Positions 10,024 through 64,000 of a DNA stretch of 64,000 bases are shown here, one piece after another (position 1 is the first letter of the stretch; the number at the start of each line of letters is the position of its first letter). This stretch comes from Microbacterium sp. SORGH_AS_0888. Lineage in GTDB: Bacteria > Actinomycetota > Actinomycetes > Actinomycetales > Microbacteriaceae. The translations under genes were made by a program, and so were the position numbers. The notes below the pieces were generated by a model that saw nothing but the letters and a program-made list of their open reading frames with translations, was not told the DNA's origin and did not search any database. The stretch spans positions 1,674,001 to 1,738,000 of the forward strand of contig NZ_JAUTAZ010000001.1 in the NCBI RefSeq assembly GCF_030818905.1, in the 5' to 3' direction.

Positions 10024-10078
10024 CATGTCCCACTTCCGACCGCTCAGCGCACTGAGTTCCGGTCCGAAGTGGGACATG
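10024..10078. repeat. 55-base palindromic element, copy 1 (prpC-prpB gap)
   Basis: Arms CATGTCCCACTTCCGACC and GGTCCGAAGTGGGACATG lie at the two ends of a 55-base unit, so the transcript can fold into a long hairpin. An extra half-arm GTGGGACATG lies at 10091-10100. Identical architecture is seen at 16937, 45291 and 62485. Confidence 0.9.
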
Positions 10079-10115
10079 AAGCGGGGGAATGTGGGACATG
10101 GGGCGGATGCGGGGG

Positions 10116-16897: not shown

Positions 16898-16991
16898 CAT
16901 GTCCCACTTCTGACCATGTCCCACTTCTGACCTGATGATGTCCCACTTTCGACCGCTGAGGCGCCCGCCCAGCGGTCGAAAGTGGGACATG
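16898..16991. repeat. 55-base palindromic element, copy 2, with two extra left arms (ppsA-thiolase gap)
   Basis: A complete 55-base unit at 16937-16991 (inner arms TCCCACTTTCGACCGCTG and CAGCGGTCGAAAGTGGGA) is preceded by two 17-base copies of the left arm, CATGTCCCACTTCTGAC, at 16898-16914 and 16915-16931. The cluster begins two bases after the ppsA stop and could act as its terminator. Confidence 0.9.
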
Positions 16992-45290: not shown

Positions 45291-45367
45291 CATGTCCCAC
45301 TTTCGACCGCTGAGCGGAGTGCGCTGCGGTCGGAAGTGGGACATGCTGCGGTCGGAAGTGGGACATG
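45291..45367. repeat. 55-base palindromic element, copy 3, with an extra right arm (ykoD-ykoC gap)
   Basis: A complete 55-base unit at 45291-45345 is followed immediately by a second copy of the right arm (CTGCGGTCGGAAGTGGGACATG, 45346-45367). The outer arms again start CATGTCCCACTTTCGACCG. Confidence 0.9.
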
Positions 45368-46897: not shown

Positions 46898-47526
46898 GCC
46901 GTGTCGGCGGCGCGCGCCTCGCGGCCGGCGGCGAACCGATCGAGCGCCCCGGTCGCGGCGAGCGCCTTCACGATGAGCCACGACACGAGGCCGGCGATCA
47001 GGATGCCGGAGACCACGGCCGAGACGAAGTAGATGACCCGCGCCCCGAGGTCGTATGCGGCGATCGACGAGAAGTTCGTGTCCAGCAGCGCCACCGACAG
47101 CCCCGCGACCGCGCCCGAGCTGAGAGCGCCCAGGAGCCGGAAGTTGCCGTAGAGGAAGAGCGCGAAGCCGATCTCGGCGCCGAGCCCCTCGATGACGCCC
47201 CACACGAAGGTGAGGAACCCCCACTGGGTGCCGACGGCCATCGAGACGACCGCCGCGACGATCTCGGTGTACAGCGCCGCGCCGGGCTTGCGGATCACGA
47301 GCCCGCCGAGGACGCCGGCGAACAGCCAGCCCCCGGAGAGCAGCCCCTCGAGCCCCGGGAGGAAGGCGAGCGCGGTGCTGAGCGGCGTCCAGGCCTGACC
47401 CCAGATCCAGAAGATGACGCCGGCGGCGACCCCGATGACGCTCGCGACGACGATGTCGACCACCCGCCAGCGGAGGTGGACGGACCGCACGGATGCGGAC
47501 GTGGACGTAGACGTAGACGTGTGCAT
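46894..47526 (-). CDS. ykoE: ECF transporter S component, hydroxymethylpyrimidine type
   Basis: The 210-residue YkoE-family substrate-binding membrane subunit, predicted to bind the thiamine precursor hydroxymethylpyrimidine or a related compound. About five or six helices; WRVVDIVVASVIGVAAGVIFW and FVWGVIEGLGAEIGFALF are typical. ATG 47526 has AAGGAGC five bases upstream. It is the first gene after the TPP riboswitch and overlaps ykoD, so the whole transporter should fall when thiamine pyrophosphate is plentiful. Confidence 0.93.
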   Translation of the reverse strand: MHTSTSTSTSASVRSVHLRWRVVDIVVASVIGVAAGVIFWIWGQAWTPLSTALAFLPGLEGLLSGGWLFAGVLGGLVIRKPGAALYTEIVAAVVSMAVGTQWGFLTFVWGVIEGLGAEIGFALFLYGNFRLLGALSSGAVAGLSVALLDTNFSSIAAYDLGARVIYFVSAVVSGILIAGLVSWLIVKALAATGALDRFAAGREARAADTA

Positions 47527-47539
47527 TGATGCTCCTTCC

Positions 47540-47622
47540 TGCGCCGGCATGATCCGGATCAGGTTCGACGGTCGAAGCGTGGATTCGCTTCCTCTCAGCC
47601 CGGAACACCGGACTCCCGTGGT
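47540..47622 (-). ncRNA. TPP (thiamine pyrophosphate) riboswitch
   Basis: Read on the minus strand the leader has the conserved blocks CACGGGAGTCCGG, GGGCTGAGAGG and CCTGATCCGGATCATGCC in the right order and spacing for the THI element. It lies 14 bases upstream of ykoE. A TATACT box at 47634-47639 would start the transcript at its 5' edge. It should switch off the ykoEDC transporter when TPP is bound, probably by hiding AAGGAGC. Confidence 0.95.
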
Positions 47623-47633
47623 GGTAGATGCCG

Positions 47634-60425: not shown

Positions 60426-61674
60426 TGGTGCCCGTCACTTCCGCATCCGTGTCCGTCCGTGATGTCCTGACACGCGCATCCGCGGGCGAACGGCTGTCCT
60501 TCGAGGACGCCCTCGCGCTGGTGACGGCGTCCGGCGACGACCGCGAGCGGGTGTTCGCCGCGGCCGCCGCACTGCGCGACGAGGGCCTGGCGGCCGCCGG
60601 GCGACCGGGGGTCATCACCTACTCGCGCAAGGTCTTCGTGCCGCTGACGACGCTCTGCCGCGACCGCTGCCACTACTGCATCTTCGTCGACACGCCGGGC
60701 CAGCTGCAGCGTCTGCGCAAGCCCGTCTTCATGTCGCCGGAGCAGGTGCTGCAGGTCGTGCGTCAGGGGCAGGCGCTCGGCTGCAAGGAGGCGCTGCTGA
60801 CCCTCGGCGACCGCCCGGAGGAACGGTGGCCGGATGCGCGCGCCTGGCTCGACGAGCACGGCTTCGCCTCGACGCTCGACTACGTCGGGCACATCGCACG
60901 GCTCATCACGGCCGAGACGGGGATGCTCGCGCACCTCAATCCCGGCGTCATGTCGGACGCCGAGCTGCGCACCCTGCGTCCTGCGGCGCCGTCCATGGGG
61001 ATGATGCTCGAGACGACGTCGCGGCGCCTGTTCGAGGAGCCGGGCCAGCCGCACTACGGCTCCCCCGACAAGGATCCGGCCGTGCGGCTGCGGGTGATCG
61101 AGGACGCCGGTGCCGCCCGCATCCCGTTCACGACCGGCATCCTGGTGGGGATCGGTGAGACACCCGCAGACCGCGCCGAGTCGCTCCTCGCCCTGCGCGA
61201 CGCGCAGGAGCGGCACGGGCACGTGCAAGAGGTCATCGTGCAGAACTTCCGCGCGAAACCGCGGACGGCGATGCAGGACGTGCCGGATGCCGACCTCCTC
61301 GAGTACGCGACGGTGGTCGCCGCCGCCCGGCTCGTGCTCGGTCCGCGCATGCGGGTGCAGGTCCCGCCGAACCTGTCGGATGCGGGCGAGCTCGAGCTTC
61401 TGGTCGGGGCGGGCATCGACGACTGGGGCGGGGTGTCGCCGCTGACGGCCGACCACGTCAACCCCGAGCGGCCGTGGCCGCACGTGGACGAGCTCGCGGC
61501 CCGGACCGCCGCCGCCGGGTTCGAGCTGCGCGAGCGGCTGACGGCGCATCCGGAGTACCTCGCCGACCTGGATCGCTGGGTCGATCCGGCCCTGCACGAC
61601 GCCGTCGCCGCCCTCGTCGACCCCGCGTCCCACCTGGCCCGCCCCGCCCCCGCGGCCTCCCCGTCCTCGTCGCC

Positions 61675-61734
61675 GAGTCGGCACTCCGCTGCCGACTCCG
61701 CATCCGATTCGCGCGATTCTCGTGCGGAGTCGGC
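61675..61734. repeat. Compound palindrome in the CofG-CofH linker of fbiC
   Basis: Three arms: GAGTCGGCA (61675-61683), TGCCGACTCCGCA (61690-61702) and TGCGGAGTCGGC (61723-61734). The second pairs with either the first or the third. The core GATTCGCGC / GCGATTCT also occurs in the palindrome at 39391. The segment encodes a Ser/Asp-rich linker. Confidence 0.7.
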
Positions 61735-62484
61735 GATCGAGGGTGGAATCGCCGTCGCGACGGGCGGAGTGCGGCGGCTCGCCGAGCGGGCGGCGGCCGA
61801 CCCCGCGGGCCTCGACGACCACGAATGGGTCGAGCTCCTCGAGGCGACCGGCGACGGGCTGGAGGAGCTCGTCCGCACGGCCGACGACCTGCGCCGCTAC
61901 ACGGTCGGCGAGGCCGTCAGCATCGTGGTCAACCGCAACCTGACGACCTCCGGATTCCGCGCGGCAGGGGCGACGGCGCCCGACGAGTTCGACCTCGCGG
62001 ACGCGGCGGCCATCGCGCGGTCGACGCGGCGGAGCTCGGCGCCACCGAGATCTGCGTACAGGGGATGCTGCCGCCCACCGAGGACGCCGGCGGCTACCTC
62101 GAGGTCATCCGGGCGATCCGCGCCGCGGCTCCCGGCATCCACCTGCACGCGCTGCGGCCGCAGGACGTCCACGACCTCGCCGATCGCACCGGCCTCGGGC
62201 TCGACGGCGCGCTCGCGGCGATGCGAGCGGCGGGCGTCGACACCGTGCCGGGCACGGGCGTGAAGGTGCTGTCGGAGCGGGTGCGCGGCATCGTCGCCCC
62301 CGGCGACCTCGACATCGACCGCTGGGTCGAGGGCATCACGGCGGCGCACCGGGCGGGCTTCTCCTCGACGAGCGTGCTGTTCTACGGTCACGTGGAGACC
62401 GCGCACGAGCGCATCGTGCATCTGCGCCGGCTCCGCGACATCCAGAGCCTCTCCGCCACTCCCCCTCTGGACGTCCCCCTTTTG

Positions 62485-62539
62485 GATGTCCCACTTTCGA
62501 CCGCTCAGAGCCCCTCAGACCGGTCGAAAGTGGGACATG
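62485..62539. repeat. 55-base palindromic element, copy 4, inside fbiC
   Basis: Arms ATGTCCCACTTTCGACCG (62486-62503) and CGGTCGAAAGTGGGACAT (62521-62538) form the same 55-base unit as at 10024, 16937 and 45291. A decayed arm-like ACGTCCCCCTTTT lies just upstream (62471-62483). It sits in coding sequence between LRRLRDIQ and GGFTEFVPIPLP. Confidence 0.92.
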
Positions 62540-62930
62540 CCCAGCGGGAGTCCCCCGGCGGGTTCACGGAGTTCGTGCCGATCCCGCTGCCGGGGCCGCA
62601 GGGCGGCGTGCCGCTCGTCGCGGACCGCTCCCCGCTCGACGAGCACCGCGCCATGGTGGCCGTGTCGCGGCTGCTGCTGGCGGGCAGCATCCGCCACATC
62701 CAGATCCCGTGGACGCGCCACGACACCGCGACGACGGCGGCGCTGCTGCAGGCCGGCGGCGACGACCTCGGCGGCACGCTGCTCGACGGGCGCGTGCGTC
62801 CCGAGACCGGCATCGAGCACGGTCACGAGCTGACCCTGGACGCCGCCGCCCGCCTCGTGCGTCCGCTGTTCCGTCCGCTCCGGCAGCGCGCGACCGACTA
62901 CGGCGACGCCGGCCGGAAGCCGACCGCCTG

Positions 62931-64000
62931 ATGCTCGACACCGCGATCGTGGGCGCCGGCTTCGCCGGGCTCGGCATGGGGATGGCGCTGCGCGAGGCGG
63001 GGCGGTCCGACATCGCCGTGCTCGAACGGGGGGCGGATGTCGGGGGCACCTGGCGCGACAACACCTACCCGGGGGTCGCGTGCGATGTGCCGAGTCACCT
63101 CTACGGCTTCGCGCGGCGGCCGAACCCCGGATGGTCGGGCGTCTACGCCGAGGGCGCCGAGATCCAGGACTACCTGCGCCGCGCCGCGGCAGGCCTCGCC
63201 CCCCAGCTGCGGCTGCGCACACCGCTGCTCGGGGCCACGTGGGCCGGGGCGGCGTGGCGGCTCGAGACGGGCGGGCCCGATCCCGGAGTCACCTGGGCGC
63301 GCAGCCTCGTGCTCGCCTGCGGCCGGCTCACCGAGCCGCGCATCCCCGCCATCCGGGGGCTCGAGACGTTCGCCGGTCCGATGTTCCACACGGCCCGGTG
63401 GGACCATTCGACCCCTCTCGCGGGCACCCGCGTCGCGGTCGTCGGCACCGGCGCCTCGGCCGTGCAGCTCGTGCCCGAGCTCGTCCGTCGCGGCGCGCGC
63501 GTCACGCTGTTCCAGCGCACGCCGGCATGGATCGTGCCCCGTGAAGGGCGACGGTACACGGATGCCGAACGCCACCTTTTCGCGACACGCCCCGACGAGC
63601 TCGCCGCGCTCCGCGACCAGCTCTACCTCGAGGGCGAGGAACGCTACGCCTCCCGGTCGGGGGATGCCGAGGCCGCCGCGGCGGCGGAGGCCGTCGCCCG
63701 CGCGCACCTGGCCGCGCAGGTCGCCGACCCGGACCTGCGCCGGGCACTGACGCCCGACTACGCGTTCGGGTGCAAGCGCGTGCTGCTCTCGGACGACTTC
63801 TACCCGGCGCTCTCGTCCGGTGCCGTGACGTTCGAGCCGTCCGCCCTGTCCGCCGTCGAGGCGGGCGAGCTGGTCGCCGCATCCGGTGCCCGCTACCGCG
63901 CGGACGTCCTCGTGCTCGCGACCGGTTTCGCGTCGTCGCAGCAGCCCTACGCCGACCTCGTGCGCGGCGAGCACGGCACGCTGGCCGAGCACTGGTCGGG
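62931..64000 (+). CDS. Class B flavin monooxygenase (Baeyer-Villiger-type), C terminus beyond the window
   Basis: An FAD- and NADPH-dependent monooxygenase of the flavin-containing / Baeyer-Villiger group. It shows the FAD motif VGAGFAGLGMG (residues 7-17), ERGADVGGTWRDNTYPGVACD, the group fingerprint FAGPMFHTARWD with His153 (matching FxGxxxHxxxW), and the NADPH motif VVGTGASAVQLVPE. The ATG overlaps the fbiC stop (TGATG), so it is translationally coupled to fbiC. It is open to the last base: 356 codons are visible, about two-thirds of the usual length. The substrate is unknown. Confidence 0.93.
   Translation, partial: MLDTAIVGAGFAGLGMGMALREAGRSDIAVLERGADVGGTWRDNTYPGVACDVPSHLYGFARRPNPGWSGVYAEGAEIQDYLRRAAAGLAPQLRLRTPLLGATWAGAAWRLETGGPDPGVTWARSLVLACGRLTEPRIPAIRGLETFAGPMFHTARWDHSTPLAGTRVAVVGTGASAVQLVPELVRRGARVTLFQRTPAWIVPREGRRYTDAERHLFATRPDELAALRDQLYLEGEERYASRSGDAEAAAAAEAVARAHLAAQVADPDLRRALTPDYAFGCKRVLLSDDFYPALSSGAVTFEPSALSAVEAGELVAASGARYRADVLVLATGFASSQQPYADLVRGEHGTLAEHWS

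Follow-up and report, generated by a model that had tools for sequence, protein, structure and literature searches.

How did a short palindrome that also lies between genes come to stand inside the coding region of fbiC, and is any enzyme associated with it? The window in which this question arises is a stretch of 64,000 nucleotides from Microbacterium sp. SORGH_AS_0888 (G000:C1:1674001-1738000), for which a preliminary description had reported a repeated 55-base unit at four sites, one of them in the CofH half of fbiC. The four copies are there, each 53 nt long and not 55. The element in fbiC belongs to a REP-like (repetitive extragenic palindromic) family of dispersed palindromes in Microbacterium, and this family is paired with a nuclease gene. 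The pairing is well supported by position, specificity and co-occurrence. To our knowledge, no spreading enzyme is known for REP-like palindromes that lack a RAYT (REP-associated tyrosine transposase). We consider it probable that the palindrome family and the AbiEi-like/Vsr-like nuclease that it brackets form a partnership resembling that of REPs and RAYTs, built on an unrelated enzyme.

A family of dispersed palindromes

The window contained 12 matches to the palindrome arms against 0.06 expected, and none of 100 shuffles reached 12. A genome-wide arm search with a count of genic copies, as the preliminary description had suggested, returned 53+54 matches at up to three mismatches, 0+0 for the reversed pattern, and 3 genic copies out of 39. 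The four copies in the window are in register, and all lie on the forward strand. The fbiC copy occupies 62486..62538, with arms at 62486-62503 and 62521-62538 plus inner pairs, and a decayed outer half-arm (ACGTCCCCCTT...) was recognized by eye just upstream (62471..62485, forward strand). The three intergenic copies are at 10025..10077, with an outer half-arm at 10082-10099; at 16938..16990, preceded by two outer half-arms (16899-16916 and 16916-16933), the farther of which begins 2 nt past a TGA stop; and at 45292..45344, with an outer half-arm at 45349-45366. Such outer half-arms are common in family-1 palindromes, as we call this family, and their outward spacing was 22 nt in 29 of 37 cases.

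The length of the palindrome is rigid. All 39 copies measured in the window and in 32 further stretches of the same genome, which thus holds at least 39, were exactly 53 nt long, with 49-58 nt allowed. At other loci, 125 of 183 palindromes measured 53 nt and 55 measured 52 nt. Between copies, likeness was 87% in the arms, where the search pattern fixes part of the sequence, 42% in the outside flanks and 36% in the centres. The arms also carried 62 paired double changes, a number reached in none of 1000 arm shuffles.

Genus-wide counts were made in 366 Microbacterium genomes using a strict pattern with a fixed tip and its reversed form as a control; palindromes with other tips were left out. 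Strict copies were found in 88 of the 366 genomes, with a maximum of 72 copies and at most one reversed match per genome. The tip is ATGTCCCACTT in the SORGH_AS_0888 genome, and its likeness across species is partly by construction because the pattern fixed it. Behind the tip, the inner stem varies by species and is mostly still paired. Because this stem is species-specific, a search of genome contigs with the exact palindrome gave no matches. A looser pattern retrieved at least 120 stretches, mostly from Microbacterium and a few from Coriobacteria, Clostridia and other records. A scan of Rfam found no family for the palindrome.

A nuclease gene bracketed by its own palindrome

When we clustered 673 genes located near palindromes, a nuclease gene, here given the working name D559, formed the top cluster (12 loci), tied with a mixed cluster of ABC transporters. 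Of the 30 best D559 loci, 29 had an arm within 600 nt, and 18 had arms on both sides. A second dispersed palindrome (family 2), GTCCAAGACAC...GTGTCTTGGAC, occurred in 47 of the 366 genomes in up to 43 copies, with no matches in the reversed control. It stands beside a paralogous nuclease gene, D559-2, whose 30 best loci all had family-2 arms, 25 of them on both sides. The two pairs did not mix: there was no family-1 arm at 30 D559-2 loci and no family-2 arm at 30 loci of the first nuclease (D559-1), giving 0/60 mixed loci.

Gene and palindrome also co-occur across genomes. With D559 called at E<=1e-90, 62 of the 366 genomes had both gene and palindrome, 12 had only D559, 26 had only the palindrome and 266 had neither; with D559-2 called at E<=1e-74, it was present in 33 of 47 family-2-positive genomes and in 0 of 33 negative ones, both cut-offs having been chosen after the tables were seen. 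The co-occurrence of D559 and palindrome was significant at each of five D559 thresholds (p<1e-20).

We also looked at additional copies of the nuclease. Twenty second D559 copies lie elsewhere in their genomes. Two of them (L303 and L304) had family-1 palindromes on both sides, and L307 had one palindrome and a half-arm. Other palindromes were found near 15 of the remaining 17, and none near L305 and L314. Among seven stretches retrieved for more distant paralogs, four were bracketed on both sides and L418 weakly; L415 had no palindrome and L420 contained no such gene.

In other genera, a word of at least 13 nt was shared between the two flanks of the nuclease gene in 18 of 26 loci versus 0 of 78 swapped controls (two of 28 loci were dropped as too short, and L425 and L426, from one genus, share the same flank word). 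For 13 of these 18 loci, a 9-nt piece of the reverse complement of the word was also present in both flanks. Within the genus, the swapped-flank test (D559-1, 18/30 versus 58/90 in controls; D559-2, 22/27 versus 59/81) is uninformative because the loci share one palindrome family.

Further palindrome types, with tips TGAGACACG, GGTTGT, GATGTTTGCTC, CGCTGGTCGCGA and GTTCACTTGCGC, ring DUF559-like genes at L311, L315, L398, L416, L417 and L419. Each type with its own tip is perhaps a separate family.

Predicted architecture and genomic site of the nuclease

D559 is predicted to join an AbiEi-like DNA-binding part (residues ~1-192) to a Vsr/I-Bth0305I-like EDxHD nuclease domain (residues ~195-302). 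The predicted fold of the latter is that of the EDxHD/Vsr superfamily, with the catalytic residues present, and the N-terminal half matched AbiEi in a structure comparison. In Pfam searches of four proteins, MTES_1575 (PF18741) stayed under its curated cut-off in all four, and DUF559 (PF04480) exceeded its own in one. Of 189 genomes sampled from the family Microbacteriaceae, 123 contained a relative at E<=1e-20.

In the SORGH_AS_0888 genome, D559 lies outside the window (G000:C1:1290056-1290976), with genes for an S9 peptidase and PfkA as neighbours. At 35 of 36 D559 loci, D559 stands between the S9 peptidase and PfkA genes, which are separated by 1.2-1.9 kb, leaving little room for an adjacent AbiEii toxin gene (no AbiEii profile was searched). 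In nine of 70 pfkA loci, the gap between the two genes was only 34-188 nt, and in one more it was 227 nt. These short gaps contain neither D559 nor arms and resemble the site as it would be if empty.

In genomes without D559 (L376, L377, L379, L382, L383 and others), another nuclease-like gene (DGFAHH..RRRDL type) frequently occupies the gap, with palindromes inconsistently present. The recurrence of this other gene makes the gap look like a hot spot. The SORGH_AS_0888 genome also has a second gene of the D559 kind (G000:31167-32042), bracketed by a third palindrome (L414 type), of which only the two bracketing copies were found in the 261,533 bases of this genome that were scanned.

Copies persist mainly downstream of genes

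The 39 measured copies in the SORGH_AS_0888 genome comprise 27 between tandem genes, eight between convergent genes, one between divergent genes and three within genes, so that 36 of 39 are extragenic. Of the 183 palindromes at other loci, 91 were tandem, 64 convergent, four divergent, 12 genic and 12 at locus edges; 18 of 180 loci were skipped in this count because their G+C content was low or their gene calls were poor. Copies thus persist mainly downstream of genes. Genes were called with a home-made caller that is blind to the fbiC frameshift described below, and the fbiC copy was set to genic by hand. Nine of the 12 genic copies at other loci fall within open reading frames (ORFs) of at most 95 aa.

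The preliminary description had proposed that the palindrome can enter genes in frame. All three genic copies in the SORGH_AS_0888 genome are in frame, one in fbiC and two in the C-terminal tails of TrmH-like and ATP-grasp-like proteins, and in another species an open LigD-like ORF (L067) has an in-frame copy in its linker. These four copies are read in the same phase; the labels TrmH-like, ATP-grasp-like and LigD-like come from reading the sequences by eye. Genic copies are few (3/39 and 12/183), and the fbiC case does not demonstrate the tolerance attributed to it.

A further regularity was seen on the stop-codon side. In the SORGH_AS_0888 genome, the gap between a stop codon and the outer half-arm measures exactly 2 nt in nine of 45 cases (TGA-NN-ATGTCCC), versus two of 219 elsewhere.

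The fbiC copy

As the preliminary description stated, the copy lies inside the CofH half, between ...LRRLRDIQ and GGFTEFVPIPLP. We compared the surrounding loop with 117 homologs, one of 118 being unresolved. A segment of 37 codons separates IQ from GGFTEF here (62446..62556, forward strand), where 105 of the 117 homologs have three residues, a net gain of 34 residues over the common loop. Measured from the Q of IQ to EFVP, the stretch has 41 residues here, seven in 105 of 117 homologs, 10-14 in eleven and 27 in one. None of the 117 homologs has the palindrome segment, including the closest (P0002), which is 83% identical across residues 1-525 of the 5' ORF. Because relatives sharing the segment were absent, the sequence comparison identifies it as an inserted dispersed palindrome and not as an old loop. 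Unrelated short inserts occupy the same FbiC loop in several species, so the site appears permissive.

The gene itself is split in this assembly. CofG and CofH profiles find their matches in two ORFs that do not share a frame. The first of these, the 5' ORF (60428..62263, forward strand), encodes the CofG half with its CX3CX2C motif and the start of CofH, and similarity stops at ~62014. The rest of the CofH half continues in a different frame at 62017..62931 (forward strand), within ORF 61474..62931, and this part holds the palindrome. Against both 30 relatives and 118 close homologs, similarity changes frame near 62015 (62014-62017), indicating a frameshift that may reflect a true pseudogene or a sequencing error. 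The preliminary description missed it: the frame is kept only locally, where the 3' ORF is open through the element, and the gene is not unbroken in the assembly. Since the frameshift lies upstream of the palindrome, the fbiC copy does not demonstrate a harmless insertion.

The CofH half lacked CX3CX2C at all 18 same-genus loci (L043-L060; positions 61890-62020 in the window) and in all 118 homologs, and the motif was kept in 12 of 12 FbiC proteins from other families of the order. Because of this lack, the second active site appears to have degenerated in all Microbacterium FbiC proteins examined, whether or not they have an insertion.

Comparison with known systems

The arrangement of D559 and palindrome is the same in kind as that of RAYTs and REPs; the enzyme, tag and length rule differ. 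According to two papers (PMC2817692, PMC3733652), REPs, too, are palindromes dispersed over the spaces between tandem and convergent genes, with the gene of a DNA-cutting enzyme flanked by its own palindrome, several enzyme-palindrome pairs per lineage, intragenic copies and a palindrome end near stop codons. Intragenic REPs are already published for other bacteria, and CGTC-type REPs 'apparently lack a dedicated transposase' (PMC3733652). Unlike REPs, the Microbacterium palindromes lack the GTAG/CGTC end tag, having the tip ATGTCCCACTT instead, and are 52-53 nt long with random centres. Unlike a RAYT, the partner is predicted to be AbiEi-like and Vsr/EDxHD, and no Y1/HUH enzyme was found. A RAYT was considered as the partner and rejected, since the Y1 profile PF01797 had no match in 32 genomes, including 18 that hold nine or more strict palindromes, but matched in five of 14 control genomes.

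The preliminary description took Rickettsia palindromic elements (RPEs) as a parallel; the relation to REPs and RAYTs proved more informative. RPEs also lie in frame within genes. They are ~150 bp long with nearly half in ORFs, and the accessible part of the source names no partner enzyme (PMC10969869), whereas the Microbacterium element is 53 nt long and mainly extragenic (3/39 genic).

The nuclease likewise departs from known relatives. Unlike other EDxHD/Vsr-type nucleases (I-Bth0305I, Vsr, DUF559, MTES_1575), D559 appears to have an AbiEi-like part joined to the N-terminal side of its nuclease domain and is palindrome-bracketed, and most of its Pfam matches are under curated cut-offs. Its N-terminal part resembles AbiEi, the inverted-repeat binder of AbiE type IV toxin-antitoxin systems. 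Unlike AbiEi, it carries a nuclease domain, and the neighbours found were the S9 peptidase and PfkA. Titles and abstract openings in the open-licence literature revealed no pairing of a DUF559 or homing endonuclease with extragenic palindromes.

A proposed mechanism and its alternatives

If D559 and its palindromes work like RAYTs and REPs, the AbiEi-like part would bind the ~22-nt half-arms as inverted pairs, and the nuclease domain would nick or cut at the half-arms or at the target. Repair could then copy the palindrome, at times with the D559 gene, into new sites, as proposed for RAYTs and REPs. The fbiC copy would be a rare genic landing in a length-variable loop of a gene that is frameshifted in the assembly. 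We infer binding, cleavage and mobility from the fold and the arrangement. We advance only tentatively, as nearly an even call, the wider proposal that Microbacteriaceae have an undescribed class of modules, in which each AbiEi-like/Vsr-like (EDxHD) nuclease subfamily is bracketed by and spreads its own palindrome, as an independent counterpart of REP/RAYT with a homing-endonuclease-type enzyme whose specificity changes together with the stems between species. If true, a second unrelated enzyme class would be paired one-to-one with palindrome families, which would suggest more than one origin for the REP/RAYT arrangement. Proteins labelled 'hypothetical', 'DUF559' or 'very-short-patch-repair endonuclease' would also gain a function.

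Several results weigh against a REP/RAYT-like partnership. At the cut-offs used, 26 of 88 palindrome genomes lacked D559, including G168 with nine copies and no match even at E<=1e-40, 12 D559 genomes lacked a strict palindrome, and 14 of 47 family-2 genomes lacked D559-2. L281 has D559 without an arm, and the more distant D559 copy L314 has a single family-1 half-arm adjacent. The fold match is also loose in its rmsd (root mean square deviation) to AbiEi, unrelated chains reach a similar Z (9.4), and Foldseek with the whole model gave nothing at E<=0.001 (best 0.0016, Rv2827c). A pfkA tree of 68 genomes was weak, and its four supported independent pairs (mean 1.1 for and 0.4 against) gave a test without power. 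By a Pagel-type test, p was 0.001 and 0.003, on one poorly resolved tree and with discordant genomes over-represented in the sample. For the dispersed copies, we found no target-site duplication (not resolved) and no exact empty site at the DNA level. Moreover, random centres combined with a rigid length are unlike recent copies and look like old sites under spacing selection.

These last properties keep a binding-site reading alive, in which the palindromes are operator-like sites and D559 is mainly an AbiEi-like autorepressor, regulated by its flanking copies, with the dispersed copies as regulon or decoys. We regard this as unlikely. In S. agalactiae, the two 23-bp inverted repeats bound by AbiEi are located in its own promoter with 3 bp between them, and four repeats of this kind are present in the rv2827c promoter (PMC7319586). 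The palindrome arms match this repeat size, half-arms recur every 22 nt, the overall length is fixed, and the N-terminal half of D559 is AbiEi-like. Against it, the dispersed copies avoid divergent promoter regions (1/39 in the SORGH_AS_0888 genome, 4/183 at other loci), most of them being downstream of genes; arms stand on both sides of D559 (18/30) and D559-2 (25/30); and the nuclease residues are conserved. The downstream placement and the self-complementarity maintained through paired changes would instead suit a transcribed hairpin under selection, such as a terminator or an mRNA 3'-end element, with D559 as an unrelated neighbour. This is improbable, since it leaves the family-specific bracketing of one nuclease family (29/30 and 30/30, with 0/60 mixed) unexplained, and there was neither an Rfam match nor, by eye, an obvious T tract in the copies listed.

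Two further readings concern mobility by other means. Short inverted-repeat elements can in general originate from insertion sequences, so the palindrome could be a derivative of an ordinary one with ATGTCCCACTT ends, akin to a miniature inverted-repeat transposable element, and D559 a passenger. We find this very hard to sustain, as D559 was the top cluster among palindrome-near genes and no transposase was seen by eye among the 25 largest clusters of the 673 genes (no genome-wide search for insertion-sequence families was made). An RPE-like element specialized for in-frame entry into genes could draw on the four genic copies that share one phase (fbiC, TrmH-like, ATP-grasp-like and LigD-like L067). 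We give it almost no credence, because just three of 39 copies in the SORGH_AS_0888 genome are genic, two of them in C-terminal tails and one in a frameshifted gene.

Other palindromes in fbiC and a riboswitch

The linker between CofG and CofH contains a second palindrome (GCCGACTCCGCA..TGCGGAGTCGGC; positions 61691-61734 in the window), apparently shared by P0002, judging from its linker peptide. As a candidate for a second dispersed family it was rejected, with three exact arm matches and, at up to one mismatch, 44+35 matches versus 44+29 for the reversed pattern. The linkers of P0010-P0019 have other peptide repeats (GTRNA..ESLE), three of them in P0015, which look palindromic when back-translated by eye. 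The sole Rfam match in the window is a TPP (thiamine pyrophosphate) riboswitch (RF00059) at 47519-47629 on the reverse strand.
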